Below, piece by piece: positions 34,627 through 50,784 of a stretch of DNA of 64,000 bases (positions are counted from its first letter, which is position 1; every line of letters begins with the position of its first letter). The stretch is taken from NCBI RefSeq assembly GCF_964020005.1, contig NZ_OZ026474.1:248001-312000 (forward strand), written 5' to 3'. The notes under the pieces are model-generated. The model saw only the letters and a program-made list of their open reading frames with translations, was not told the DNA's origin and did not search any database. A program made the position numbers and the translations under genes. This DNA is from Spiroplasma endosymbiont of Atherix ibis. Its GTDB lineage: Bacteria > Bacillota_I > Bacilli_A > Mycoplasmatales > Mycoplasmataceae.

Positions 34627-34720
34627 TATTGTTTTATTTAAAAATAAAACAATATTTTTATTGTGCGTATAACAAAGAATTAGGGGCAAATAGGAAAAGA
34701 CGATAAATATCGTCTTTTTT
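34627..34720. promoter_or_regulatory. Two strong hairpins at the left edge of the prophage
   Basis: A 12-bp stem (attgttttatt / aataaaacaat core) at 34627-34654, and a second hairpin (aaaagacgat / atcgtctttt) with a T-run at 34695-34720. No gene lies between them. The second is a forward terminator that isolates the prophage operon from host transcription. Confidence 0.6.
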
Positions 34721-34728
34721 TGTTCTTT

Positions 34729-34750
34729 TGTAAAACCAAATAAACACTTC
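34729..34750 (+). repeat. 22-bp direct repeat, copy 1 (putative phage promoter element)
   Basis: Contains gtaaaaccaaataaacac and is identical to 40912-40933. Both copies lie 27-28 bases before a start codon, with a TATA-like box (here cgtataaat) right after. The ttgtaa at its left edge could be a -35. Confidence 0.65.
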
Positions 34751-34777
34751 GTATAAATATTGAAAAGAGATTTTAAT

Positions 34778-35059
34778 ATGCATGCAAGAATAGAATTTAA
34801 ATATATGAGTTTTTCCAGAGGTTCTAAAGAATTTAGACTTTTATACAAAATTGAAGAATTTAGTTCTTATCAATTAGAATGAGAAGAAATCATTAAATTT
34901 GAATTACCTATTTTCAGTAAAGTTAAAGAATGTCTAATTTGATTAAAAAATAATTTATATGAAGTGTATGAAATGCTGGATCTAGAAATTCCATTTGAGG
35001 CTATTGAATTTAAATTTCAAAGAAGTCCAAAAAGTATGGGAGTTGATTTATATGAATAG
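34778..35059 (+). CDS. Prophage protein of unknown function (93 aa)
   Basis: A soluble, mixed-charge protein beginning MHARIEFKYMSFSRGSKEFR. It follows the 22-bp repeat and a ribosome site (aaagag). It overlaps the resolvase gene by eight bases, so it is the first gene of the early operon. Not recognised; the position suggests a replication or recombination accessory. Confidence 0.65.
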
Positions 35060-35516
35060 TTACTATTTAGGAATCGATATTTCTGGAACTGGAACAACCT
35101 CAATTTTTGATGGTTTTAATATTCATACATTTTTTAGTAAAGAGTGAAAAGAACATTTTAAATTCATACAAAGAATTAGAAGTCTATATCCATCAATTAA
35201 TGAGTGTATTATTTTTGAAGAAATGAGACCCTTACAAAATAATGTAGCTAATACAGATATGGTTTCATATGCAAAGTTAATAGGTGCTATCGAAATTAAA
35301 TATAAAAATATATTTAAAATTAATTCATTTATGATTAAAAACTTTAAAGATAAAATTCGAAATAATAAAAAATCAATTGATGAACTCATATTTAAGACTG
35401 GTCGTGCTAGGGGTTGATTTTGGTGCTCCAAACGCATTAATGAGCATGAAGTAGATGCAATTATCATTTACTATTATGGATCAGCAAAAAAAGAAAATCA
35501 GATAAAAATTATTTAA
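35052..35516 (+). CDS. RuvC-like Holliday junction resolvase (phage type)
   Basis: The 154-residue RNase H-fold protein has GIDISGTGTTSIF with the first Asp, a central CIIFEEMRPLQNN with Glu, and a C-terminal NEHEVDAIIIYYYG with the last Asp. This is the catalytic pattern of phage and poxvirus-type RuvC resolvases, which trim branched DNA before packaging. It overlaps the upstream gene by eight bases. The G+C-rich element begins right after its stop. Confidence 0.8.
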
Positions 35517-35519
35517 ATC

Positions 35520-35880
35520 CTATTTATATAGATTGGGTAGAGACACCTTATGCGACTTGCGAAAGCAGCAAAATTGTACTCCGGTTATGGTATACGTGAA
35601 CCATTAGAGACCGCATCTATTAAAAGGCGGGGTAGTTTTGGGGTTGCGCTCAAAACACGTCTAGCATTAGCTAGAGGTAGATAGTTTTAACTATGGCAGT
35701 CTGAACTCTTACGAGTTGCAAAAGCGAGACTCCTGAAAAGGTTTTTGGGGCAGAAAATGTAAATTATGCTCGCGTGCATGCTGGCCGTTGCGTGGTGACG
35801 GAAAGAATGACACTTTGCTCTTTTGTAGGGCAAAGTGCGTCTAACCTTAGCGGGCTCTGGAAAGAATGTGATTTTTTTCG
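35520..35880 (+). ncRNA. G+C-rich, hairpin-dense noncoding element, long form
   Basis: About 360 bases, clearly richer in G and C than any neighbour, without a plausible gene. Hairpins seen: ttgc-gaaa-gcag (35557-35568), atggt/accat (35587-35604), ccgc/gcgg (35611-35630), gttttg/caaaac (35635-35656), tctagc/gctaga (35660-35675), atagtt/aactat (35681-35694), aactc/gagtt (35704-35717), cct-gaaa-agg (35732-35741), ccgt/acgg (35785-35801) and cactttgc/gcaaagtg (35811-35837). Two GAAA tetraloops are typical of folded RNA. It shares blocks and a hairpin with 42782-42915. Phage-borne large structured RNAs (GOLLD, ROOL) are precedents; identity unknown. A DNA function such as packaging site or origin is the alternative. 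Confidence 0.6.
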
Positions 35881-35911
35881 AAGGTTTTTAATAATTCAAG
35901 AAAGGAAAAAT

Positions 35912-36097
35912 ATGAAAAATAAATGTCAAAACATTAAATGTAACAAAGAATTTAGTTATTATCCAAACTCAAGCTATTTAATAGCTAAAGGTAAAGTTTT
36001 AAAAGTTTGTAATGAATGCAATTTAATTGAAATTTCATTACGTTTAAAAAAATTATATAAAGGTCCAAACAGAAAGATAATGAAGCATATTGAATAA
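35912..36097 (+). CDS. Small zinc-ribbon prophage protein
   Basis: The 61-residue protein has MKNKCQNIKCNKEFSYY and VCNECNLIE, four Cys in two knuckles, and a basic tail. An in-frame upstream extension to 35774 runs through the G+C-rich element and is rejected: only ATG 35912 has a ribosome site (aaagga). Probably DNA- or RNA-binding. Confidence 0.7.
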   Translation: MKNKCQNIKCNKEFSYYPNSSYLIAKGKVLKVCNECNLIEISLRLKKLYKGPNRKIMKHIE

Positions 36098-36170
36098 TTA
36101 ATTGGAATTATTGATACTCAATCTAAAACTATTTCAAATTTAATAATAGATAAATACAGAGGTGATAATA

Positions 36171-36563
36171 ATGGATAAAGATATAATTAAACACAATCTA
36201 ATACATCTATCGGGCCAAGTCTACTCTAACCCAGAAGAACATTCTGGTAAAAATGCTAACGGTTCTGGTGAATGATTAATTAGAAAAATTAAGATTATAT
36301 TTGATAATAATCAATGAATAGATCTAATTTTTGAAGATTTAGAATTATGAAATAAATATAAAAAAATTCTAATTGGTTACTATATTGAAGTTAATGGATT
36401 ATTAAAAAATTCATTTAATAGAAAAGCTAATCAATCCAAAGCTCAAATTGAAGTTATTGAAGTCTTATATACATGTCCAATTAAAACAACAACAAAAAAT
36501 AAGTTTTTAATGTCTAAAGATACCTTGCAAAAAAGAAAATTGAAAATAAAAGGAGATAAATAA
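36171..36563 (+). CDS. SSB-like single-strand DNA-binding protein (phage)
   Basis: The 130-residue protein begins MDKDIIKHNLIHLSGQVYSN and contains GEWLIRKIKIIFDNNQWIDL and KKILIGYYIEVNGLLKNSF, matching the OB-fold strand pattern of SSB (loop, aromatic residues, hydrophobic strand, then VEVIEV-type strand). The tail is basic rather than the acidic tip of cellular SSB. The DnaC-like gene follows directly at its stop codon, which supports a replication role. The family call is by pattern, not by a strong motif. Confidence 0.6.
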
Positions 36564-37115
36564 ATGACTAAAATTCAAAATGATTTTTATGATATTTTAA
36601 ATCAATTTCTAAAATATAAAAACAATTATAATAAATTAGATTTTAAAACTCAATGAGATACAAATTTTAAATCATTATCTACAAGATTAAAAGAATCAGA
36701 TTTATTGAATAATAATTTATATATATTTGGAAATACTGGTGTTGGTAAGACTTATTTTTCTCAAGAATTAATTAATGGAAGAGGAATGTATTATAAGTGA
36801 TATGAAATAATAAATGATGTATTAAATGGTGATAATAAAATTAGAAAATACTTTAATTCAGATATTATAGTTATTGATGATTTTTTATCTAAAAAACCCA
36901 CTGAATATAATATTAATATATTTTATGAGATAATCGATACAAGATTAGAAAACAAAAAACAAACAATAATTACTACAAATTATAGTCCAAAAGAGTTTAA
37001 AAATATTTTACAAAATTTAGGAACAATAGAGCATTATTTACAAAATAGAATATCTAGCAGAATGAATTTATTTGATTTTTATGAATTTAAAGGAAATGAT
37101 AAAAGAAAAAAATAG
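36564..37115 (+). CDS. DnaC-like helicase loader, AAA+ ATPase (phage)
   Basis: The 183-residue protein has Walker A IFGNTGVGKTYFSQ, Walker B DIIVIDDFLS, sensor 1 QTIITTNYS and an arginine-finger region YLQNRISSRM. These match DnaC/IstB-type ATPases that load the replicative helicase. Its ATG follows directly after the SSB-like stop codon. The early transcript ends at the terminator just downstream. The phage probably recruits the host helicase, since none is encoded here. Confidence 0.85.
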
Positions 37116-37135
37116 ATTTTAAAGATTTCTTAAAT

Positions 37136-37180
37136 TCTTCTAAAAAACCAAACCTCTTTATTTTTAAAGAGGTTTTTTTA
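37136..37180 (+). terminator. Terminator of the prophage early operon, with repeated 18-nt module
   Basis: Stem aaacctcttt / aaagaggttt (37150-37175) and a T-run. The 5' part tcttctaaaaaaccaaac (37136-37153) recurs at 40364-40381 and 42730-42747. Confidence 0.8.
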
Positions 37181-37183
37181 TAC

Positions 37184-37212
37184 TTAACTTATTGGTGCTC
37201 ACCAAATGTTAA
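37184..37212 (+). promoter_or_regulatory. Nested inverted repeat before the structural genes (possible operator)
   Basis: ttggtg-ct-caccaa (37192-37205) is flanked by ttaac (37184-37188) and gttaa (37208-37212). This symmetric site lies between the early terminator and the first structural gene, where a late-operon regulator would bind. Confidence 0.45.
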
Positions 37213-37225
37213 AGGATAAACAAAA

Positions 37226-37699
37226 ATGACAGAAGAAACAAAAGTAGATGAAATTATTCAGGAGACTGCACCTGAAACTTCTGAGGAATTAGATAAATCA
37301 AAATCTTCTAATGAAGAAGAAAATCAAACTGAAGAAGTACAATTTAGTGATGAACAAAAAGCAAAAATTAATGAAATTATTAAAGAAAATATTAATAATA
37401 AAAATATTGAAATTTTAGCTTTACAAGATTCATTAAAAGATAAAGATTATCAAATTCAATCTTTAAATAATCAATTAATTCAAAAAGAATTATTTTCACA
37501 AAACTTAGATATCACAGATACACAATTAGAATTTATTAAGCAATTGGTCAATAATTTTACATTTGCAAATATTGAGGAAATTGTTAGATCTGTTAAAGAA
37601 TTAATTGGAAAACAAGTCGAAATAGTTGATGAACAAGACTTTGGCGGAAAAAAAGAAAAAATATATATAGATCCAAGTAATCCTCTTGGATTAGAATAG
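37226..37699 (+). CDS. Probable capsid scaffolding protein
   Basis: The 157-residue protein is acidic and Glu/Gln-rich at the N-terminus (TEETKVDEIIQETAPETSEE) and helical in the middle (EIIKENINNKNIEILALQDS and following coiled-coil region). It ends with a short hydrophobic patch near YIDPSNPLGLE. It sits directly before the major capsid gene, the usual scaffold position. No sequence motif defines the family, so the call rests on position, charge and coiled coil. Confidence 0.6.
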   Translation: MTEETKVDEIIQETAPETSEELDKSKSSNEEENQTEEVQFSDEQKAKINEIIKENINNKNIEILALQDSLKDKDYQIQSLNNQLIQKELFSQNLDITDTQLEFIKQLVNNFTFANIEEIVRSVKELIGKQVEIVDEQDFGGKKEKIYIDPSNPLGLE

Positions 37700-37707
37700 G
37701 AGAAATT

Positions 37708-38691
37708 ATGGCATTAAAAGATTTTAAAAATCAAAAAGGTTTTATTGATCTAAACAATGCAACTTCAAGAACTGAAGTTGTTCAAGGAATTTATAATGAA
37801 GTTTATCCAACAAAAATTGGTTTTGAAGATTTAATTCCTTTTGAAACTGTTAGAGAACGTAATCAAAGAGTTACTAGAAGAAAACCTTTAAAATTTACAG
37901 TAACAACAGGTGAAGATATTGGTAAAATTTATGAACAAAAAGGTGTAATTTTTGAAGAATATTCAAAAGCTGAATATATAGAAGAAAATATCACAATTGA
38001 TAAAGCATTTACAATAGCGAGAAAATATTCACCACTCGAAACTTTAACACCAGAATTAATTGCAGCTGATTTATCATAGGCCGCTGTCGCTGAAACTCAG
38101 TATAAAAGAAAAGCATTATTAGATACAGCATTAGAAGCTCATAAGTTAGTTTTAGGTAAATTAGATTTAAGAAAAGATGCTTTAAAAATTCATGATAAAA
38201 TAATTGATCATTGTTATGAAATGGGAATTAATATTGAAAACTTATGAATTTTTTCAGATATTGAATTAAATAGAGGTTTTAGAGACCAATTAAAATTAAC
38301 AATTGGAGCAACACAACAAATTCAAGATGTATTAGACGGTAAAGACGTAACTATATCAGGTATTCAATCATCAGTTGAAGGAATTAATTATGTTGGTATT
38401 CCAAAAAAAGTAGCAGTATTAGATCCCACTGGCAAAGCTGGAGTTACTACAAATTTATTACCAAAAGGAATAATTGTTTATTTAGTTGAAATGAATCCAC
38501 AATATCGACCATTTAAAGCTATGGAATGAACACATACGCCATTAAGATGTAAAAAAAATCCAGTCGGTAATGGAGAGGGTTCTGTTGATATTATGGAATA
38601 TGCAAAAGGTTATGATGTTAAATTGATTGAATCATTAAAAGTATTTGCTGTTACTGTTGAACCTGAAACACCAGAAGAATCAGAAGAATAG
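37708..38691 (+). pseudogene. Major capsid protein, interrupted by one TAG
   Basis: The frame encodes about 327 residues. It starts ALKDFKNQKGFIDLNNATSR and ends EPETPEESEE, with one in-frame TAG at 38077-38079 between IAADLS and AAVAETQYKRK. The size, the place after the scaffold, and the region VQGIYNEVYPTKIGFEDL followed by a central domain with GINYVGIPKKVAVLDP fit a tailed-phage capsid. No internal start with a ribosome site was seen after the TAG. A terminator overlaps the final stop. If the TAG is not read through, no capsid can form. Confidence 0.65.
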
Positions 38692-38708
38692 TTATACTAT
38701 TCTTTTTT
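38683..38708 (+). terminator. Terminator after the capsid gene
   Basis: Stem agaatag / ctattct around ttata, then six Ts. The stem includes the capsid stop codon. Confidence 0.7.
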
Positions 38709-38728
38709 ATTAATTAAAGGAGAAAAAC

Positions 38729-40362
38729 ATGGTTGGTACTAAATCTTTAAAATTAAAAATTATTAAGAATAATAATTTAAAATTAACTAATTTAAAAAAA
38801 ATACAAGTTGATTGGTAGAAATTCTTAAGATAATTGGAGTTGGAGTTTTAGCAGCTGCACTTGGAGCTGTTGGTCAAGCATGAGCTAGTGTAGGACTAGT
38901 TGCTATGGGCGCAGGAGAACTTGGAGTAGGAGTCGGGGCTGCATTTGTTGGGGCATCAGTAGAATTTGCTACAATGACTGCATATGATGCTATTACTGGT
39001 AATTTAGATCCATTGAGTTTAGCATTAAATGCATTATCTTTTGCAAAAGTTGGTAAAGTAGCTTCTACTGAAGTAAAAATGGCTAAAGCATTAAAATTAG
39101 CAGAAGTAACTGGTTTATTTAAACAAATTGCTATTAAAGCAGGAGAAGTTAAAAATTATACTGATTTATTAAAAGTTTTATAAGGTAAAAAAATTGTTTT
39201 GAAACAAACAATTTTTGATTTTTCAAAAGGAATTAATAGAAGTGATATTCTTCAAATGTTTTCTACATGATCTACAAAAAATGCGGTATCTAATATTTCA
39301 AAAATAATGAAAACACAAAAAGGAATATTAGCTTCAAAATTAGATGATTTAATTAAATTACAAAATATTCTTACAAATATTAATCCAAAACTATTTCCTA
39401 AAATTCAGTCAAAATATTGAAAAGAAGCTAAAGATTTACTAGCTAGAAAAGGGTTAAAACCTAAAGATTTATTAAATGATTCTAAATTTAGTAAATTAGT
39501 TTTATCAGCTCGTACAAGTGCAGGTAATGTATCTGGTCAATTAATTTGATCACTTTATAGTTTAAGATTTACAAAATCATTAGACTTACAATTATCAGCA
39601 AAATTAATGAAATATATTAAAGGTGCAAATAAAGCACTATCATATTTAGATTTACAAAAGCATTTTAATAAAATATTGTCTAGTACTGTTGATATAGTAA
39701 TGAAACCAATACAAAAAGTAGTTACTAAAATTAAGAAAAAATTAATTAAAAAAATTGATCAATTAATTAAAAAAATGGGTATATCAAAATTAGGTAAAGC
39801 AACATATAAAAATATCGATAAAATTTTAATCCCTGTAATTTCTGAATGAATTTTAGGTTATAAAGTTAAACCTTTGCCAACAGGGACATATACAGTAATT
39901 ATTTATTTTAAAAATTTAAAATATAAACCAAGAATATTTTATTGAAATCAAAAAGAAATGATGTTATGATTAACAGTATGCAATAAACAAAAGGTAGGAG
40001 AATATTATAAACAAAACTTAGAGTTAGGTTATCATTTAAAAAATTCTTCTATTTTGGGTGCATTAAATTTTTTACCGCCTATAATAACTGGTTTTATTAA
40101 AGAGGGAATTAAAACATGAAAGGAAATGAATAAAATTATTAATACATTTAAAACTTCTCCTAAATCATATTTAAATGATGCAATGAACAATGCTAATAAA
40201 TTATTAAATTCAAAGAAAAATAATTTTATAGTTGCTACAGTATTTTTTAGAGGTGTATTAAAGAATTTTTTAAATGATAAATCAAATAAAAACTATTTTA
40301 GAAATTATTTAATCAATAAAGGAATACAAAAATTTAATAATAAAATTAAAACAATACACTAA
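38729..40362 (+). pseudogene. Gly/Ala-rich membrane-interacting phage protein, with frameshift and TAA
   Basis: ATG 38729 with aggaga opens MVGTKSLKLKIIKNNNL but stops at TAG 38816-38818. The next frame continues at the same place (LVEILKIIGVGVLAAALGAV) and runs, with one TAA at 39181-39183, to TAA 40360-40362, about 540 residues in all. The first part is a long Gly/Ala hydrophobic region (VGVGAAFVGASVEFATMTAY). The rest is Lys-rich and helical. This resembles internal virion, pilot or tape-measure type proteins that cross membranes during DNA entry, but no family was recognised. Confidence 0.55.
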
Positions 40363-40433
40363 TTCTTCTAAAAAACCAAACTTCTTTTTTTCTTAAAAAG
40401 AAAATATATTATTTTTTTATAGGAGGAATTCAT

Positions 40434-40865
40434 ATGAATAAAAATAAAAAATTACGTAATTTTGTAATTTTGAAAGTATTACCTTTATTGTTATCATTAG
40501 GTCTTTCAATTGGTATTGGTTATATGATAAATGCTATACCCTTTATCAATAAACTAGATAAATCAGATACTATTGCTATTATTGTAGGATTTGCAGTAAT
40601 TTCAGCTTTTATGTTTTTTGGATTATTTTATAAAGCGATTCAAATGCTAGATAAAGCTCGTGCAGAAAAAGCAATTGATGCAAAAATGATGCTTGGACAT
40701 AGAATTGTATCAGCTGATATTTCAAATGCAAAAGAAGCTAAAGAATATGCAAAAAATAAAAAACTTGAAATGGAAAAAGCAATTCAAGAACATAATGCAG
40801 CAATTAAAACTGCTAAACATTTTGAAAGAAAAGCAAAACATATTAATGAAATTAAAACAGTTTAA
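40434..40865 (+). CDS. Two-helix membrane protein with helical tail (prophage)
   Basis: The 143-residue protein has two hydrophobic helices (VLPLLLSLGLSIGIGYMI and IAIIVGFAVISAFMFFGLF) followed by a long charged helix (KAIDAKMMLGHRIVSADISN and on). Very good ribosome site (aggagg). It lies between capsid and terminase genes. The role is unknown; virion membrane or entry protein, or lysis accessory, are possibilities. Confidence 0.65.
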   Translation: MNKNKKLRNFVILKVLPLLLSLGLSIGIGYMINAIPFINKLDKSDTIAIIVGFAVISAFMFFGLFYKAIQMLDKARAEKAIDAKMMLGHRIVSADISNAKEAKEYAKNKKLEMEKAIQEHNAAIKTAKHFERKAKHINEIKTV

Positions 40866-40871
40866 AAATTA

Positions 40872-40901
40872 AAAAGGTTCAAAATTAACTGGACCTTTTA
40901 T
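40872..40901 (+). terminator. Terminator before the terminase gene
   Basis: Stem aaaaggttc / ggacctttt (one G-T pair) with a 10-nt loop, followed by AT-rich DNA. Confidence 0.6.
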
Positions 40902-40911
40902 AATTAAATTA

Positions 40912-40933
40912 TGTAAAACCAAATAAACACTTC
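40912..40933 (+). repeat. 22-bp direct repeat, copy 2 (putative phage promoter element)
   Basis: Identical to 34729-34750. It is followed by catatatatt and ribosome site aggag before the terminase ATG. It probably starts a second phage transcript. Confidence 0.65.
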
Positions 40934-40961
40934 ATATATATTATATAGGAGTTTTAATATT

Positions 40962-42692
40962 ATGTATACAAAAAGCAAAAATTTATTATCTAAAAATTCA
41001 ATATCTAAATTTAGTATAGATATAGAAAATATTAACAAAATTGGATTTACCTGAGATTTATTTATTAATTTAGTTCCATGACCATTCAGAAGATTTATTT
41101 GTACTGGCAAAAAAGATAGGATAGCAGAAACTGCTCGTTATACTGGAAAGAGTTGATTATTTGCTCTTGATAAACTTTTTAGATTAATTACATTTAAAGA
41201 TGAAAATTCAATTGTTGGTCGTTATAATTTTTCAACGCATAAAAATACTACCTGAGTTCAATTTCAAAAAGTAGCAAATTTATTAGAACAAGAATTTGAT
41301 ATCCAAATTGGACCTGAAAATATAAACGGATTAAAATGAATTATGACAAAAGATGAAGGTTATATTTTATGAAATAAAAGAAAAATAAAATTTGAATCTA
41401 TTGGAAAGTTTAAAGATTCTACACTGGGTATGGAATTTGTTGTTGGGGTATTAGGTGGAATTTGAGTTGATGAAGCTTCTAAGCAACCAAAAGAATCAAC
41501 AACAGAAGATATTGGTAAATTAATATATGATAATGCAGATACAATTTTAGGTTCTGCTGTTCGTTCAGAATATTCTGGTTTTAATGAACCAATACCAGAA
41601 TTTGTAACTGAAATTCCTGTTGTTAATGAAGATGGTTTCTATGTTTTAGATCGAAATGGTAAAGAGTTTCCTGTATGAGATGAAAAAAATAGAAAATTAA
41701 TACAAGTGAAATTTAAAACAGAAAAAATAAATTATTTTAAAACAACACATTTATATTTTTCATTAAACGGTTGAGATCCTGAAAATATGTTACATGAAAA
41801 ATATTTTGAAGATTTATAAGAATTAAACTTTGAAATTAAACAGCAAATGCTAAATTTGAATTCTGCATATTTTGAAGATAAGAATTTAGATTGCGCTTTA
41901 ATTAGGGCAACATCATGAATGGCTAAAGCATGTGGAATTATGTCTTCAAGAACTGAAATGCATTTGATAAATGTAATGGTGAAAAACCCAGGTAAAGCAG
42001 AAGGGATAGTTCTAGGATATATTGCAGAAGATGATAATTTAAGTTTATTTACATATAGACCACATATGGATAATACAAATATTTTTAATTTAAAAGACTC
42101 GTTGACTGATAAGAAAACAATATTAATAGATAAAAAGGAATATATAATAAAACATTTAACATTTGGTTTAGATTGAGGTTTTTCAAAAATAAAAGCAAAA
42201 AATTCAGCAATAACAGTTGAAGGCTATTCTGATTGAAATAGTGAACATAAAGCATATGAGTATACATTTTCATTGGGAGATTGACATGCAATAACAAAAT
42301 CAAATAAAGTAGATTCAGAAGAAATTAAAATTCTAAATGCTGCTAAATTTATCTATGAGACTTTTAATAAATGAAAGAGATATTTACATTATATACCTAT
42401 AGTATGATATGACTTACAAGATAAAGTAACTGCATGACAAGTTCAAAAAGAGTTAGAAAAATTGGGGCTAAAATTTAATTTTTTACCAGGTGCAAAACAT
42501 GTACAAAAGAAATGAGATAGATCAGATAGACAAGCTTGAATGCAACAAATTTTAGCTTCAAAAAGATATTTTATAGATCCTAGAATTTCGCCTTTGCTTT
42601 ATAAAGAAATAACACAATCAAGATTAGCTAAAGGTAGTTTACAAGCGGACAAAAATTCAAAAGATGATGCAATTACTGCATTAGGGTATTAA
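40962..42692 (+). pseudogene. Terminase large subunit, interrupted by one TAA
   Basis: The frame spans 576 codons with one TAA at 41817-41819 (KYFEDL-stop-ELNFEIKQQ). ATPase part: Walker A-like ARYTGKSWLFAL and Walker B GGIWVDEAS. Nuclease part (RuvC-like): HLTFGLDWGFS with the first Asp, IVWYDLQD, and a C-terminal NSKDDAITALGY. This is the DNA packaging motor and headful nuclease. The TAA falls between ATPase and nuclease domains, so neither a complete motor nor a clear separate nuclease start is available. It starts behind the second 22-bp repeat with aggag. Confidence 0.85.
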
Positions 42693-42729
42693 AGAACGAT
42701 GACTAGATATCATGTTAAAAAATCTTTTA

Positions 42730-42747
42730 TCTTCTAAAAAACCAAAC
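42730..42747 (+). repeat. 18-nt terminator module without its 3' stem
   Basis: The same tcttctaaaaaaccaaac as at 37136 and 40364, again right after a gene end, but here the pairing half is missing and the G+C-rich element follows. Confidence 0.6.
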
Positions 42748-42781
42748 CTCTTTATTTTAATAAAATTGATTATTATAATTG

Positions 42782-42915
42782 CAGTAACGTGACAAATGCA
42801 AAACACGCGTAGCAAAAAAACTGTTCCGCCTTTTGTTCTCTTTGGGGAGCAAGCCGGAGCGGGCTCTGGCGAGCAAGGGGTCCCCAGAACGAAAACAGAA
42901 AGTGGTCCCAGTTGT
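42782..42915 (+). ncRNA. G+C-rich noncoding element, short form
   Basis: About 130 bases, roughly half G+C, between terminase and portal genes. It shares with the long element caaaacacg..tagc (42799-42813; two mismatches) and agcgggctctgg (42858-42869; identical), in the same order. Just before the second block it has a hairpin ttgttctc / gggagcaa (42833-42852) matching the position of cactttgc / gcaaagtg in the long form, with several paired bases differing. Also tctgg / ccaga and gttg / caac hairpins. An ORF of 63 codons across it is not credible. RNA or DNA packaging signal; not identified. Confidence 0.55.
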
Positions 42916-42964
42916 TTTTGCAACAGCGTCAAAAACCTAAACTCAAATAAAATAGGAGGCATAT

Positions 42965-44104
42965 ATGATAAAGATAACGCCAGTTGAACGTAATGCTGAT
43001 GATAATTACTTTGAAGCTTTACAAGTCTTGAATCTTAAACCATCTAATGCAGGTTCATTAATGATAGATAGTTTGGCATCTGAACGCGCGAACTCATTTG
43101 ACTGAAAAAATATAGAAACTAACTCACATAAGTTTAATAAATATATAAAAGATAAACCGTGATTTATAGAAGATTTATATGATTTATCTAAACGTTCATT
43201 GTTAAAAGAAAGAGTATGATTTGTAATTATCGATGATTACATTGAACCTTGCTTAATTAATCAAATTTCAGTTAGAAATAGAGATAAAAAAATTTTAAAG
43301 GCTATTATTACTGTTGCAACCATAAACTTTAAAGATTGTGACTGATTAGTTCAATATAGCTATGATATTACAAAAGATAAAGTTGAATTTAACTTAGATT
43401 CATTACAAAAAAATGAGCAAAAAATAGATGATATAGAACGAATTATAAGGGACAAAATTTTAGAAAATAATTGAAATCCAAAACAAAATGGAATTCCAAT
43501 TGTACAATGAAATTCATTTCCCAAAAATACTAATTTCTATGACTTAGCAATTGAGAAGGCAGAGAAATTAAACATTGTAAATGATGTAATAGTTGACCAA
43601 ATTCTTAATTTAATGCAAAAACAACAAGAATTTAATTCTGATCAAGAAACCGGTAATCCTGATTCTGCTACAAACCTGAAAGATTCAAAAAATAGATATA
43701 TGAAAATATCTAATCAAGTATCTTCAATGACGACAGAAGAATGAACTAAACAAATAGCTTTATACTCACCTAATTCTTTGATATTAAAAGAGTTTAGAGA
43801 TACTGCTGATTGGTTAGAAGAAGACATAAAAAAACATGGTAAGGCTATTAAGGATGATGATAATGATTCAGCTCAAAAAAATAATGCAGAAATATTAAAT
43901 ATTAATAGAAGCGCAACTGATGCATTAGAACTTAATAAAGATCAATATGAAAATAATTTAAGAATATTAATATCACTATTTGATAAAACAGAAATTGAAA
44001 ATGTTAATGTTAAATTGCCATTTAGAACTATTAACAAAACAATCATAGATAATGCAGAAGAGATAATGATTAAATCAGGCAATTCAAAAGGGGGAATAAA
44101 ATAA
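42965..44104 (+). CDS. Probable portal protein
   Basis: The 379-residue protein follows the terminase, the standard portal position. It begins MIKITPVERNADDNYFEALQ. It has no membrane segment and carries a portal-like segment (NGIPIVQWNSFPKNTN followed by AIEKAEKLNIVNDVIVDQIL), where portals have I-P-V-V then an Asn-rich loop and a helix. It ends with a long helical region. It is shorter than most portals. The stop overlaps the next ATG. This structural gene has no lesion. Confidence 0.6.
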
Positions 44105-44694
44105 TGAAAAAGTTACCATATGAACAAATATGATTTTCACTTGAAGAATATTTGAAAGATAATACATTTGGTAAACCTTATTTGTCTACAGTTCCTTCAA
44201 AATGAAAAAAAGAGTTTTCAACAGTAACGGATATGTATAACACAATAATGTTAGATATTCAGTATCATGTAAATCTTTTCTTTAATGAATTATTTTCACA
44301 TATTGAAGTACATGTATTGCCTATTAATAAATTGAAATTAATTAAAGCCGCATGTTATTCTACATTTGTTTCAAAATTATATGGAATGCTAATTACAGAT
44401 AAAAATGTAAAACAAACTTTTTCAAATAATTAAGGTTATTCAATTGAAGAAAATCAAACAAGAGAAACTAATCATTATCAAGATATATTTACACCAAGTG
44501 CTATTAAAGCTCTTAATCAGACTCAAATAAAACAATTATAAAAAATATACACAACATGAGAAGAAGTATTTGCACATATTAAAGACAAAAATTTTGATTA
44601 TATCTATACATCAGCTGAAATTGATGAATTAATTGAAATTATAAAAATTGAATCTGAAAACTTATTTAAAGATATTGCAACATATGTTGGATAG
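44104..44694 (+). pseudogene. Phage head-completion-type protein with two in-frame TAA codons
   Basis: ATG 44104 overlaps the portal stop. The frame runs 196 codons to TAG 44692-44694 with TAA at 44431-44433 and 44539-44541. Protein-like sequence continues across both (VKQTFSNN, then GYSIEENQTRETNHY, then KIYTTWEEVFAHIKDK). Helical and charged, no motif recognised; position after the portal suggests a connector or adaptor. Confidence 0.55.
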
Positions 44695-45388
44695 GTTAGA
44701 CAAACATAAAACAGAGTTAGCTAATAATAAAGATATTATTAATAATATTTCAGTATCATTAGTAGAAAATGAAGAATTAGTGAATAAATTTGAGGAAAAA
44801 CTTGAAACAAAATTTACAAAAGAATTAGATACTTTAAAAAATCAATTTAAAAATTTAAATAATTTATTGTTAAAATCAATACCACCAATAATTAGAGTTC
44901 CTTTGGATTTCGGTTTTGATGAAGATTTATGAGAATTAATAGATGAACCAATTAAAATGAAAAAATTAAAAATTAATCCAAAGGATATTAAAGTTAGTGG
45001 TAAACTTTCTGATGCAAATTTCATCTATGAAATAAAAAATGTTAGCAAATAATATAATTATTACTTATTTTTTGCATGAAGAATTGCTTTATCAAATTCA
45101 CTTCTTTTTGGCAAAAATATATCAATTGTTTCTCAATCAATATGAACAAACGACATTAGAACTTACGAATTCTTTAATGCAATTAGTAATGAAACTAGAA
45201 TTATAGCTTCAGGAGAAAATTATACATTATTTAAGAAACTAATCATTCAAAAAGAATATGACATCTTTTCTGAAGGCATAAAAAATAATCTTTTTATAGA
45301 AACAACAAGACAAAAGTTTAAGGAAATTTATAGTTATGATTCTGAAACACCAAAAAATGAAATTGTATTAAAATATAAAAATTTATAA
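44684..45388 (+). pseudogene. Prophage coiled-coil protein, probably one gene split by a TAA
   Basis: ATG 44684 opens a 122-residue frame (MLDRLDKHKTELANNKDIIN, helical; then IIRVPLDFGFDEDLWELIDE) that stops at TAA 45050-45052. The same frame continues without any start codon or ribosome site for another 111 codons (LFFAWRIALSNSLLFGKNIS to IVLKYKNL) to TAA 45386-45388. The simplest reading is one gene of 234 codons with a nonsense codon. Its role is unknown; joining or tail protein by position. Confidence 0.5.
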
Positions 45389-45420
45389 TAATGGAAAATA
45401 TTATCTTCAGGAGGTAAAAG

Positions 45421-45903
45421 ATGCAAAATAATGAAATATTTAAAGAAATTATTAAAAATGTTAATAAAAAAGTTGTAATAAATTTGGATTTAATGACAGA
45501 TAAACAAAAAGCAATTTTTCATTGGAATTGTTTTATTAAATGATTTACTCATTTTTTATATTTTGTTTTATATAATGCTTTTGCTACTGTTGGTTGATTT
45601 AGTATTATACAAAGTAATGGTTTAGATAATACATATCATCAATTAGCACAATATTCAGGTATTACATTTTATTGTGCTGGTCACGTTACTTTAAATTTAG
45701 TTCAAGGAGTTGTTGTTTGATTTACTAAAAGACCTAAATATGACAAAAAAATACAAGAAGGTGGAAATCCAATAATTAAAAAAACTGGGTTTAGAATAAC
45801 AATGTTTTCAATAATTGTTTTACCACTTGTTTTATATTCAATAGGGAGATTAATAATTAATATTAAATATAAAGATCAAAAAATAAAAAAACTAGTAATT
45901 TAA
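45421..45903 (+). CDS. Three-helix membrane protein, possible holin
   Basis: The 160-residue protein begins MQNNEIFKEIIKNVNKKVVI and has hydrophobic helices near FTHFLYFVLYNAFATVGWF, YSGITFYCAGHVTLNLVQGV and MFSIIVLPLVLYSIGRLII. Ribosome site aggagg. Its place among late genes and its topology suggest a holin. A wall-less host needs no endolysin, and none is seen, so the lysis or release mechanism would rest on the membrane alone (inference). Confidence 0.55.
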
Positions 45904-45921
45904 AAAGATTGGAGAAACAAA

Positions 45922-46203
45922 ATGGGTCTACAACAAAAATTAATTAATGAGTATAAAAAAAATCAAAATATTAAAAAGCAAATTTTAGAATTAGAAAAAC
46001 AACATAAACTTAATTTAGTTTATAAAAAAGATTTAGAAGAATTAGATGATTTAAAAAATCAATTAAAAGAAATTACATATAAATCTGATTCTTCTTATAA
46101 TGAATGAAATTACTTAAAGAAATCGATGGATACACCATCAATGGAGGAAATATATGTCAAAGATTCGCAAGAAGATAGACCCAGTGAATTACCACAGGTT
46201 TAA
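45922..46203 (+). CDS. Small coiled-coil prophage protein
   Basis: The 93-residue protein is a Lys/Glu-rich helix (LQQKLINEYKKNQNIKKQIL on) with a short acidic tail. It begins behind ggag and overlaps the next gene by about 50 bases in another frame. Unknown function. Confidence 0.5.
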
Positions 46204-46360
46204 AAAAGATATTGAATAAAAGTATCAAAAAGTAGAAGAAGAATATAATGAACTAGTTAAGCAAAATGGTTGAAAAGATGGTAAAGCTAGAACATTTGCA
46301 ATGATGAAAAATTATATTTCATATATGAAAAAAGAACGTTTAGAATACGAAGGAGATTAA
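46154..46360 (+). pseudogene. Small basic prophage protein with an in-frame TAA
   Basis: ATG 46154 behind ggagg opens MSKIRKKIDPVNYHRFKKDI, is cut by TAA 46217-46219, and continues KYQKVEEEYNELVKQNGWKD to TAA 46358-46360. In all 68 codons. Helical, charged, not recognised. Confidence 0.45.
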
Positions 46361-46361
46361 T

Positions 46362-48395
46362 ATGCCTAATCCCATGACTTTAAATCCAGATGAAATTATT
46401 TATGAATAAGATGAACAAATAGAAAGTTTACCAATTGGTCAAAGAAAAACATATTATATTTATGAGCTTAAAAAGCTTATAAAAGGAAAGACTGATTCAC
46501 TTTTAACATTTTCGCCCAATAGTGTAAATTTAGTGATAATTGATAAAGATGAATATTTGAAGTTTGAAGTTTGAAGACCAGATGCTCAAACATATGAATA
46601 TCGTACTAAACAATCTGTATCAAATATAGATGGTGAAGTTGATATTGCTCAATATGAAAAAGAAAATGTATATTCATATTTAGATTTAACAGGATCTTTA
46701 AATTTTGAAAATGGAAAGATATTTAAATATTCAAGAAATAAGTTATATATGGTATCTGAATTTATTTTAGAAACAGATGACGATATAACTAATTTTTGTT
46801 ATTTAATTCAAAAAATAGATGCAGATAGTCCATTAACAGATAACATGAATGGAAATAAAAATATTGAAATTGTAGATCTAAATACATGAGCTGCCCGTGA
46901 TAGCAATAATGCAATATTTAGAATTGGTAAACAGTTAAATTCTCTTGAATTAAAAGAATTAAAAATAACTGCACCTAGTTCATTTTTACTTTCCAATTTA
47001 AAAGTATTGGGGGAAACAAAAGAGGGTACTGAATTATTTCCTGAAATTATATCTAAAAGTGATTTAATTCCAATTTGAGTTAATCCTATTGAAATTAATG
47101 ATCAAGGTGAAGTTAATTTATTTAATTTTTGAATGACAGATAATATTCTTCCATGAGAAAAAGCAAAAAAATTTATAAATACAACAGAAATAAATGACTT
47201 GATAAAGGGTGAAGAAGTGGAAGAAATTAGTGATTCTGTAACATTCAATTAGGACGAATTAGATAAATTAGAATTTGATTACAAAGGACAATACACTGAA
47301 AAAACATGAGTAACAACAGGTATTGGTGAAGGATATTGAGATAAAAAATAATTTTATTATGAAAGAAAAACACAACAAATACCAGGTAATAGTCCTACAT
47401 TTGAAGAATATAATAGAAAAATTAAATATGCTAATAGCTATGAAAAATTAAGATCTGTTAGCGTTTATTTTAGAAGTAAATTAATTAAATCAACACTTAT
47501 TAATTTACTTTCTGAAATATTAACAGCAAGTTTTAATTACAAAAATAATTTTAAAGGTGCAGGATATAAAGATAATCAGACGGGTGAACTTAATGAAATG
47601 GCAAAATATAAACAAGAATTTGAAGGTAAAACAATTGTTGAATATATTGATGGACTTGAAAAAAATTGAGAACAAAAATATCCTAATGAAATTGAAAAAG
47701 AACAATATAAAAATTACAAAGCAATTAGATCAATGTTATCTCACAATATATTTGGTTCATTATCAATTAATGAGGGTAAAAATGAGGATAACAAAATATT
47801 GTTACCTTGATTTTTTGAATTACAAACTAATCCGGTTTGGACAGGCAAAAATCCTGATGATGGAACAGGTATTTGAAAATTCAAAGATACAATTAAAGTT
47901 AAATTAAAAAGCTCATACTTTAATTTAGAGAATATATTAAATAATAAATTTCAAGCCTCTTTAAAAAATACTATTTCAGATTCAATAGCAATCAAAACAA
48001 ATAAGGACAGATTTATTTGACCTTTTCTACCAAATCAAATTGATGAAACACAATTACCTTCGTTATCTGTCAAAGATTTCAAATTAGAAGATGAAAATAT
48101 AGGTAAATTTATTGTTAATGTTTCAAAGACATGAATAAATTATTTTGGCAAAAAAGATGAAATATTTAAAATTAATTATCAAAATGTAGTTAATTTAAAT
48201 AATAAAAGTAATTTGGAGTACATTTTTGAGTTAGAAACTGTAAATCCAAAGTTAATAGATATCTCCGGTATTTACGGTTCAGGTAATTGAAAAATTGAAT
48301 TTATTGATAAGGGAGGAAAGAGTATTTTAATAGATAATTTAATTTTATTTAAAATAAATAAACAAAATATTACTAAAGTAAAAATGCTAATATAA
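46362..48395 (+). pseudogene. Large tail or receptor-binding-type protein with three in-frame stops
   Basis: ATG 46362, right after aggag, opens a frame of 677 codons with TAA 46407-46409, TAG 47250-47252 and TAA 47349-47351, and ends at TAA 48393-48395. Protein-like sequence is continuous across the stops (EIIYE/DEQIESLPIGQRK; SVTFN/DELDKLEF; GYWDKK/FYYERK). The product is beta-rich with many aromatic and Asn residues and no membrane segment. Its size and place at the end of the late operon suggest a tail spike or fibre. No motif recognised. Confidence 0.55.
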
Positions 48396-48412
48396 TAAAT
48401 AGAGGTGAAAAA

Positions 48413-49024
48413 ATGTTTAAAAAAATTTTATCTTTATTATCATTGCCTGTGTTGACTGTAACACCAATGGTTGTAGTTTCATGTTCTAATAAATTCAGTT
48501 ACAATTTAAATGAAAATGACATGTCTTTAATAACCAAGATATCTCAAGAATTAAGTGATTTTTCAATTAAAAAAGAAACTTTGTTAAAAGATATTTTTGG
48601 AGAATTAGATAAACAAAAAGCATTGATTTTTAATAAATTTCAAGAAGAAATAAATGGTCAATATACAGATAAGGAATATACTGAAAAGAAAAAGGAATTC
48701 AATAAATTAGATATTTCTATTGTTTATTTTAATAAAGAATATGATGTTGTCAGAGATGAAAGCGGGCATGGATGAAGTTATTACAAAAAAAGTTATAATA
48801 AAAATTCAGAACAATTTAAACAGGGTAATTGGTCAGAATGATTAGAATTATCTATAAATAACTTTTCAGTTGCAAGAACTGGTAAAAAATGAAAAACTGA
48901 CAAATATTCTGAAATTTCAAAAAATATGTTAATAGTATTAGGTGACATAAAAATTAGTCATGATAAAGAACAACTGAAAAATGCTTGAATTGATGGTATA
49001 AAAGTTAATACTAAATTTGAATAG
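48413..49024 (+). CDS. Prophage-encoded lipoprotein
   Basis: The 203-residue protein has a lipoprotein signal (MFKKILSLLSLPVLTVTPM, lipobox VVSC, Cys at 24) and a soluble domain of about 180 residues (SYNLNENDMSLITKISQELS). It is the last gene of the late operon, 17 bases after the tail-type gene, ended by a strong terminator. It is intact while its neighbours are broken. A surface lipoprotein from a prophage may change receptor properties or block superinfection (inference). Confidence 0.78.
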
Positions 49025-49045
49025 AGCTTATGCTCTATTTTTATT
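49020..49045 (+). terminator. Terminator of the prophage late operon
   Basis: Stem aatagagc / gctctatt with loop ttat, then Ts. The stem includes the lipoprotein stop codon. Confidence 0.8.
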
Positions 49046-49085
49046 TAAATAAATAATATAATTATCTAGAAAGGAGGTAAATAAT

Positions 49086-50231
49086 ATGTTATTTAATCGT
49101 AAAGAAGAATATAAATTTTTATTAAACAAAAGAAGGGGAGAAATTGAAGCAAGAGATATAGAACTTCTTGAAAATAGAGACAAAAAAAGATATATCCTCA
49201 TTAAAGTCAAATCCAGAACAATCACAACAGAGTTTGGAAATTTAACATTCGATAGACATATCTATAAACATTATATAAAGAAAAAATGAAAATATATAGC
49301 CCTAATTGATGAAGAATTAAAATTAAAGAAATGATCTAAACTAGATTTAAATTTAGTTGAATTAATCAAAGAACAATTAGGTACTGGAAAACGTTATAGA
49401 GATATTATTGATATGTTCCCGGAAGCTAAATTATCTTTAATGACTATTTCAAGAATCTTTAAATCTATAAAAAATGAAGATAAAAGAAACAAAGTTGAGA
49501 GAAAAATCAGTTTAGTTGATAAACAAAGAGTATATATTTTTGTTGATGATGCATTTGTTAATGTTGATAGGTTTAAAAATAAATATAAATGAAGAAAGTT
49601 AAAAATAAATAAGGATACTCAAATAAGAGTAGTTTCTTTTTGCACAGGTTTTGATATTAAAACAATTCATAAAAAACGTAGGAAATTAAAAGATAAAAGA
49701 ACTACATTTTTTATAGGAAAAGATGAAAAATTAACAACAGAAAAATTAGCTATAAGAATTTATGAATTAGGATGTAATTTTTATGATAACTTTGAAAATG
49801 CTAAATTAGTAGTTGGAGGAGATGGTGCTATTTGAATTAAAGAGTTGGCATCGTTTATAGGAGCTAATTACATTTTAGACAGATTCCATGCAGTTAGAGA
49901 ATTTAGAAAACTATTTTTATTTAACGGTAAATATCATGGTAAAGAATTATTTAGAATAGCGATAAATTTATTTTATTCAGGTAATTATAAAGAATTAATA
50001 CAATTATTAGAAATTGAAGCACCAAAAGAAGTATTCAAATATTTTAAAAATAATAGGATAGGAATAATTAATCAAAGTGCAGAATGAAATATAGGAGTAT
50101 CAGCTGAATCAGAAGTTTCAAGACTTGTTAAATCTGCATTAGGATATGGAAGTAAAGTATATTCACTAATAGTATTAAAAAATATGCTCAATGAAAGAGC
50201 ATATAAATTAAATAATAACTTAATATTTTAA
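49086..50231 (+). CDS. Intact UPF0236/ISLre2-like transposase (Mbov_0401-like)
   Basis: The 381-residue protein starts behind aaaggagg. It shows TEFGNLTFDRHIYKHYIKKK, a helix-turn-helix-like GKRYRDIIDMFPEAKLS, and candidate catalytic segments YIFVDDAFVNVD, VVGGDGAIWIKELA with YILDRFHAVREF, and a C-terminal SAESEVSRLVKSALGYGS. It is related to, but strongly diverged from, the broken copy at 3271. It may be an independent insertion at the prophage edge or the mobility gene of the prophage itself. No terminal repeats were recognised. Confidence 0.8.
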
Positions 50232-50236
50232 GTCAA

Positions 50237-50500
50237 TTACAATACTTTAATTTCAGTTATGATTCTAAAATATTTTTTATCATCATTTGTTAATAAATGA
50301 ATTTCACCTGCGTTTATAATTTCTAAATTTCAATCCTTTGTTAAAATTAGAAATTTATCCTTATCAATTACTTTAGAAGTTTTAAAAGGATAAGAAACAT
50401 GCTTCTTAGCATCATCAAAACTTTTGAATGAATTAACTAGTATAATTTTTGCACTTTCATTTGCATTTTTGCTAATTTCTATAATTGGATATATGTACAT
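50237..50500 (-). CDS. Small cytoplasmic protein of unknown function (87 aa)
   Basis: Reverse strand, 87 residues: MYIYPIIEISKNANESAKII, then KVIDKDKFLILTKDWNLEII and LLTNDDKKYFRIITEIKVL. Ribosome site aaggag. It ends six bases after the transposase stop and is transcribed from the divergent promoter shared with the RNase J-like gene. No family recognised. Confidence 0.65.
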
Positions 50501-50523
50501 TTTATAATTCTCCTTTCATTTTT

Positions 50524-50596
50524 AATTATACATTTTTTAACAAATCTAAAAAATTTGTATTTTTTGCTTTGTTTAAATGTTAAAAAATGTATAATA
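50524..50596. promoter_or_regulatory. Divergent promoter with a 16-bp inverted repeat
   Basis: ttatacattttttaac (50526-50541) is the exact reverse complement of gttaaaaaatgtataa (50579-50594). The tips hold tataat boxes facing both ways (minus strand about 50524-50529; plus strand 50590-50595). Inside are caaat / atttg. This can be two symmetric promoters, an operator, or both. The plus-strand transcript has a 5' leader of about 180 bases. Confidence 0.55.
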
Positions 50597-50784
50597 AAAG
50601 TACAATTGAATGAAAATCGTATTTTCCGTTCCCTACCTTTAAGTTATGCACCCATTTTAAAAACTTTACTTTAACTTTAAATAAATTATAATTAAAAAGT
50701 ATTTAATTCTGATTGACGTTTATTTTAAAAAAGAACTAAACAAAAAATAATAAAAAAAATAAAGAAATGGAGAAAAATAAAAAT

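Follow-up and report, generated by a model that had tools for sequence, protein, structure and literature searches.

In Spiroplasma, S. atrichopogonis has 158 pseudogenes and S. eriocheiris 30 (PMC4607517), and a premature stop in the recA gene of S. melliferum is documented (PMC3563533, citing Marais 1996). An in-frame stop has likewise been described in recA of Borrelia recurrentis (PMC2525819). Spiroplasma are without mutS and mutL, and change in their genomes is GC>AT-biased (PMC8208695). The closest measured neutral yardstick is Mesoplasma florum, in which mutation accumulation yielded 23.1e-10 insertions and deletions (indels) and 97.8e-10 substitutions per site per generation, a ratio of 0.236 (PMC4978911). 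Here we describe a decayed prophage in a window of 64,000 nucleotides, bases 248001-312000 of the complete 1.07-Mb chromosome of a Mollicute (genome G000) for which code 4 is needed (TGA = Trp). The prophage is broken mostly by in-frame stop codons, and we found that this stop-rich decay is real yet not specific to the prophage.

As in the S. atrichopogonis/S. eriocheiris pair, one of two close relatives has gathered pseudogenes and the other has stayed intact. In G000 the lesions lean towards stops, and G>T changes are raised. Like the recA genes of S. melliferum and B. recurrentis, those of its recombination genes that are damaged have in-frame stops in otherwise near-intact frames, but here one and the same genome has stops in recA, ruvA (two of them) and ruvB. 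Measured against M. florum, the lesions hold far fewer indels than its ratio predicts. The element itself shares with mycoplasma integrative and conjugative elements (ICEs) a DDE transposase of the Mbov_0401 family, but what it carries is a module of tailed-phage packaging and structural genes and not one for conjugation. The finding fits known Spiroplasma erosion; the event is of an ordinary kind, and what is unusual is its spectrum of lesions.

Results

The inserted element occupies positions ~34660-50655 of the window (unstranded), between a rhodanese-like gene and rnjA. Its breakpoints, ~34660 and 50655, were obtained by blastn against the sister genome G008 (~93% identical), and the two flanking genes are only ~150-210 bp apart in G008, G014, G013, G007, G012, G016, G015 and G002. 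Since the flanks are contiguous in at least these eight relatives, the element is a discrete insertion in the G000 lineage and not a loss from G008. It is a recent, lineage-specific, tailed-phage-type insertion of 16 kb, larger than the 37708-48395 interval that a first-pass annotation of the window had taken as the prophage. With its synteny to an intact phage-type gene set, its several disabled genes and the empty site in relatives, it has the marks of a cryptic prophage.

The intact, collinear set is that of the genome G024, from a different genus of the same family, which served as our yardstick. Its proteins (465 residues in the capsid position, 570 residues, a membrane protein, a 599-residue terminase, 380 residues in the portal position, then 542, 190, 83 and 707 residues) were aligned to the window DNA by a frame-aware dynamic programme permitting stops and frameshifts. 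Identity to the G024 proteins in these alignments is 27-53%. Six genes are hit, all on the plus strand. The putative major capsid gene (37708..38691; its role is assigned by position only) is 53% identical to the intact 465-residue protein through a TAG at 38077. The 570-residue structural gene (38714..40362) has a frameshift near 38800 and a TAA at 39181, with 34% identity to its intact counterpart across both, and the terminase large subunit gene (40968..42692) is 45% identical to the 599-residue protein through a TAA at 41817. A tail gene of the 542-residue type (44101..45388) has stops at 44431 and 44539, a frameshift near 44680 and a possible stop at 45050, and is 34% identical to G024 up to 45049. 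The 83-residue gene (46142..46360; 37% identity to an intact G024 open reading frame (ORF)) has a TAA at 46217, and the tail gene of the 707-residue type (46374..48395; 38% identity to an intact single ORF) has stops at 46407 (TAA), 47250 (TAG) and 47349 (TAA). In the 542-residue-type gene, the N-terminal two thirds is common to both elements and the C-terminal end is unrelated, the pattern expected if a receptor-binding part had been swapped.

All ten TAA/TAG codons listed by the first-pass annotation are present at the coordinates it gave, and for all of them except 45050 in-frame homology to G024 continues across the stop. At 45050 the reading frame remains open over 111 codons, yet G024 homology ends there, which places this stop in neither class. 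Where a single frameshift (~38812) had been claimed we found two, bringing the total in the element to nine in-frame stops and two frameshifts. The claim that decay proceeded almost wholly by stops therefore holds as to the stop-rich character (9-10 stops to 2 frameshifts) and was slightly overstated as to the frameshifts. Frame changes at ~45903-46118 and 46360-46374 were considered as further frameshifts and rejected, as they are gene boundaries present in G024 too. The lesions are confined to structural genes, and the early genes (34.7-37.7 kb) are free of them.

The stop excess in the prophage is more than chance. In non-coding DNA shared by G000 and G008 the indel/substitution ratio is 0.27-0.32, and the nonsense share of substitutions in the genes concerned is 0.08-0.10. 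With indel/substitution ratios of 0.24-0.32, stops are expected to make up 22-32% of lesions, and 10 of 12 in the prophage departs from this with P between 1e-5 and 4e-4. A remnant in another host, G023, is ~89% identical to the element in its remaining genes and fits the expectation, with 3 stops and 12 frameshifts (a tally that omits one stop and one frameshift inside a probably non-coding GC-rich stretch). The two counts, 10:2 and 3:12, differ (Fisher P = 0.002). Both the departure from expectation and the contrast with G023 argue against chance.

The same type of lesion is found in host genes. Over ~383 kb of G000 stretches, in 193 genes that are intact in G008, the same programme found 23 in-frame stops and 19 raw frameshifts, of which ~12 remained after curation; removed by hand were apparent frameshifts due to ORF extension 5' of the true start or to a lesion in G008 (G008 ORFs 313037, 342858, 455743, 429973 and 505312). 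The reverse comparison, for lesions in G008, gave 2 stops and 5 raw (~3-5) frameshifts. The stop-to-frameshift ratio does not differ between prophage (10:2) and host (23:12; Fisher P = 0.30). Former Glu codons account for 14 of the 23 host stops, and CAA is the source of two. Stops stand in recA (one), ruvA (two), ruvB (one) and hemW, and further broken genes include a DeoR-type regulator, a GH1 beta-glucosidase, chitinase-like lipoproteins and an insertion sequence (IS) transposase. In G000, recA lies at ~353593 and ruvA and ruvB at ~544071-545550, outside the window, and all are intact in the 93%-identical G008. NCBIfam confirms RecA and HemW, and RuvA/RuvB weakly; the G000 RecA is 73% identical to that of Spiroplasma sp. 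TIUS-1, the closest named relative seen. The loss of recA-ruvAB is a correlate of the stop-rich decay, with no demonstrated causal role.

Substitutions were polarised with G007 as outgroup. The total number of changes is about equal on the two branches (4930 on the G000 branch, 4742 on the G008 branch), but G>T numbers 176 on the former and 28 on the latter (P = 1e-26). The other GC-lowering classes are raised as well on the G000 branch: C>A 145 vs 49, G>A 615 vs 326 and C>T 468 vs 204. In genes intact in all genomes compared, G>T changes number 103 vs 21, and in a four-way comparison G>T makes up 4.2% of changes in G000, 0.7% in G008, 2.0% in G007 and 1.2% in G014. The ratio of nonsynonymous to synonymous counts (N/S) in intact genes is 0.44 for the G000 branch, against 0.23 for that of G008 (P = 8e-19), and constraint is thus relaxed genome-wide on the G000 branch.

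Other features of the element

The remaining features are also on the plus strand. In the early region, a GC-rich stretch (35520..35900; ~45% GC in a genome of 24% GC) shares 92% identity with G023 over 538 bp. It has no Rfam match and folds weakly better than shuffles (z = -1.8); it may be a non-coding structured phage RNA. It is followed by a small intact gene that is SSB-like by inspection (36150..36563; 37% identity to the G024 homologue, no Pfam match), an intact gene for a DnaC-like helicase loader (36564..37115; PHROG 50, E = 3e-21) and an intact putative scaffold gene (37220..37699; 31% identity to the G024 gene 5' of the capsid gene). Among the structural genes, a small membrane protein gene (40434..40865) is intact, with 40% identity to G024 and 85% to G023, as is the putative portal/connector gene (42965..44104), assigned by position and 28% identical to an intact G024 protein. 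The terminase-portal intergenic region holds a GC-rich hairpin (42693..42960, or 42760-42960 when delimited more narrowly; folding z = -3.4), with a short match at the same intergenic place in G024. The Pfam match of the terminase is weak (Terminase_6N, E = 6e-4, below the cut-off), and AlphaFold models of the capsid and portal proteins have mean pLDDT (predicted local distance difference test) values of 43.5 and 45.0, too low for a search for HK97 or portal folds. Queries of phage, viral-contig and genome-contig collections with terminase, capsid or portal found no close phage relatives.

The final plus-strand gene of the element encodes an intact DDE transposase (49062..50231) that matches the Mbov_0401 ICE family end to end and above cut-off (NCBIfam NF046004, E = 1e-73; Pfam UPF0236). 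At the left end of the element, the empty-site junction sequence tentatively places an imperfect short terminal inverted repeat (GTGCGTATAAC..; 34661..34690, plus strand). The G024 element has an IS3-family transposase in the equivalent place and lies between perfect 15-bp inverted repeats spaced at 17.3 kb. The two elements combine related tailed-phage-type cargo with different transposases at the same place, and an exchange of integration modules seems to have taken place. Positions 498383-504435 of G000 hold a second, distant phage-like segment, in which a 692-residue homologue of the 707-residue-type tail gene and a terminase-like ORF are both intact and an IS3-type transposase is split.

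Discussion

We favor, with a probability of about 0.72, neutral decay of a recent insertion in an eroding lineage, with relaxed selection and a substitution process that is AT-biased and enriched in G>T. The element would have entered a Spiroplasma-type chromosome recently, most likely by its own transposase, and would then have decayed neutrally while the host lineage itself was eroding under relaxed purifying selection. With G>T the most raised of the AT-biased changes, glutamate codons (GAA/GAG) would often have become stops, and the same bias acting under relaxed selection would make host and prophage lesions alike stop-rich. We infer that most of the prophage stops come from the same substitution process as those of the host and that the low indel share is a trait of the lineage. 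Recent decay under a C-to-T or G-to-T bias had been among the options of the first-pass annotation; the lineage-specific insertion, the GC>AT-biased branch and the excess of G>T bear it out in part, whereas C>T has a minor share (2 of the 23 host stops).

Several observations weigh against this reading. The spectrum alone predicts 22-32% stops, and the host has 66% and the prophage 83%. Glu-derived host stops exceed the 32% expected from the branch spectrum (14/23, P = 0.004), and the four-fold rates come from 52 G sites. G>T/G>A is 0.35 in G000, which is ordinary beside G007 (0.30) and G014 (0.38); it is G008 that is low, and part of the G>T contrast is therefore due to the low G008 value. 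The ancestral codons of the prophage are poorly resolved, two stops aligning to Glu and one to Trp in G024. The repair gene mutM is intact. We also considered G>T alone as the explanation of the stop ratio and rejected it: the nonsense share of substitutions rises merely from 8 to 10%, a modest lift that does not fully explain the shortage of frameshifts.

A recent G:C>T:A mutator of the 8-oxoguanine type would explain that shortage, since a higher substitution rate would let substitutions outrun indels and turn Glu codons into stops, with the prophage and host lesions dating from that period. Relative to the sister G008, G>T is up 6-fold and C>A 3-fold, four-fold G sites have changed to T at 10/52 on the G000 branch vs 1/52 on the G008 branch, and the stops are mostly Glu-derived. 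MutY/Nth-type glycosylases (PF00730) were not found in any of the 20 genomes of the genus that were searched, which leaves no backup. However, MutM keeps its full length and its conserved motifs, the two branches are equal in total changes, and G>T/G>A does not exceed the values of G007 and G014. With mutM intact and the MutY/Nth family not found across those 20 genomes, no lineage-specific lesion in mutM or mutY has been identified, and we consider a mutator unlikely.

Tolerated readthrough of TAA and TAG, with the genes still functional, was another option of the first-pass annotation and would fit the frequent replacement of one amino acid, Glu, by stops and the absence of any second lesion in recA, ruvB and hemW. 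Functional readthrough has no support here, and we regard it as very improbable. None of the 29 tRNA genes of G000 has a UUA or CUA anticodon, and G008 has the same 29; the tRNA with a UCA anticodon in both genomes is the tRNA-Trp of code 4. In the 193 host genes compared, stops fall only in genes whose function is dispensable or which have other marks of relaxation; the recognised stop-bearing genes have recombination, sugar, regulator, lipoprotein, transport and IS functions and look dispensable, with no tRNA synthetase or ribosomal protein among them. N/S is 0.67 in genes whose only lesions are Glu-derived stops, 0.44 in intact genes (P = 0.047) and 0.82 in otherwise broken genes, and the intermediate value is that expected for young pseudogenes. 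The prophage moreover has frameshifts too, and its intact relative in G024 is stop-free at the sites concerned. A conserved GAA has become TAA in 4/2392 cases in the three-way set. A weaker form, in which ordinary tRNAs misread UAA at former Glu codons without a suppressor gene, so that recA, ruvAB, hemW and the phage genes are not yet fully dead and Glu nonsense accumulates beyond the mutation spectrum, is in our judgement just as doubtful.

We give equally little weight to the possibility that the stops mark true gene ends or reflect a local gene architecture. The tail genes are divergent, and the position of 45050 at the limit of G024 homology would suit such a view, but in G024 the capsid, 570-residue, terminase and 707-residue genes each form a single ORF, to which the sequence before and after every stop is homologous. 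A mutagenic anti-phage system that struck the prophage specifically, also proposed at first, could draw on the ten stops against two frameshifts and on their restriction to structural genes with the early genes spared. Host genes, recA, ruvA and ruvB among them, have lesions of the same kind at a similar ratio, however, so a phage-directed mutagen is not needed, and we hold it to be most improbable. A sequencing or assembly artefact is hardly credible, as long-read errors are mostly indels and not substitutions and the stops match the spectrum of polarised substitutions in intact genes.

Read as a case of neutral decay in an eroding lineage, an odd-looking prophage becomes a gauge of decay in a small-genome bacterium. 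One phage in two hosts has left different lesion spectra, and the stop-rich host is the one with stops in recA, ruvA and ruvB and a raised share of G>T. That such a genome has in-frame stops at Glu codons is not by itself a sign of recoding. Sister strains would allow a direct test of how repair, relaxed selection and the mode of gene death are linked.

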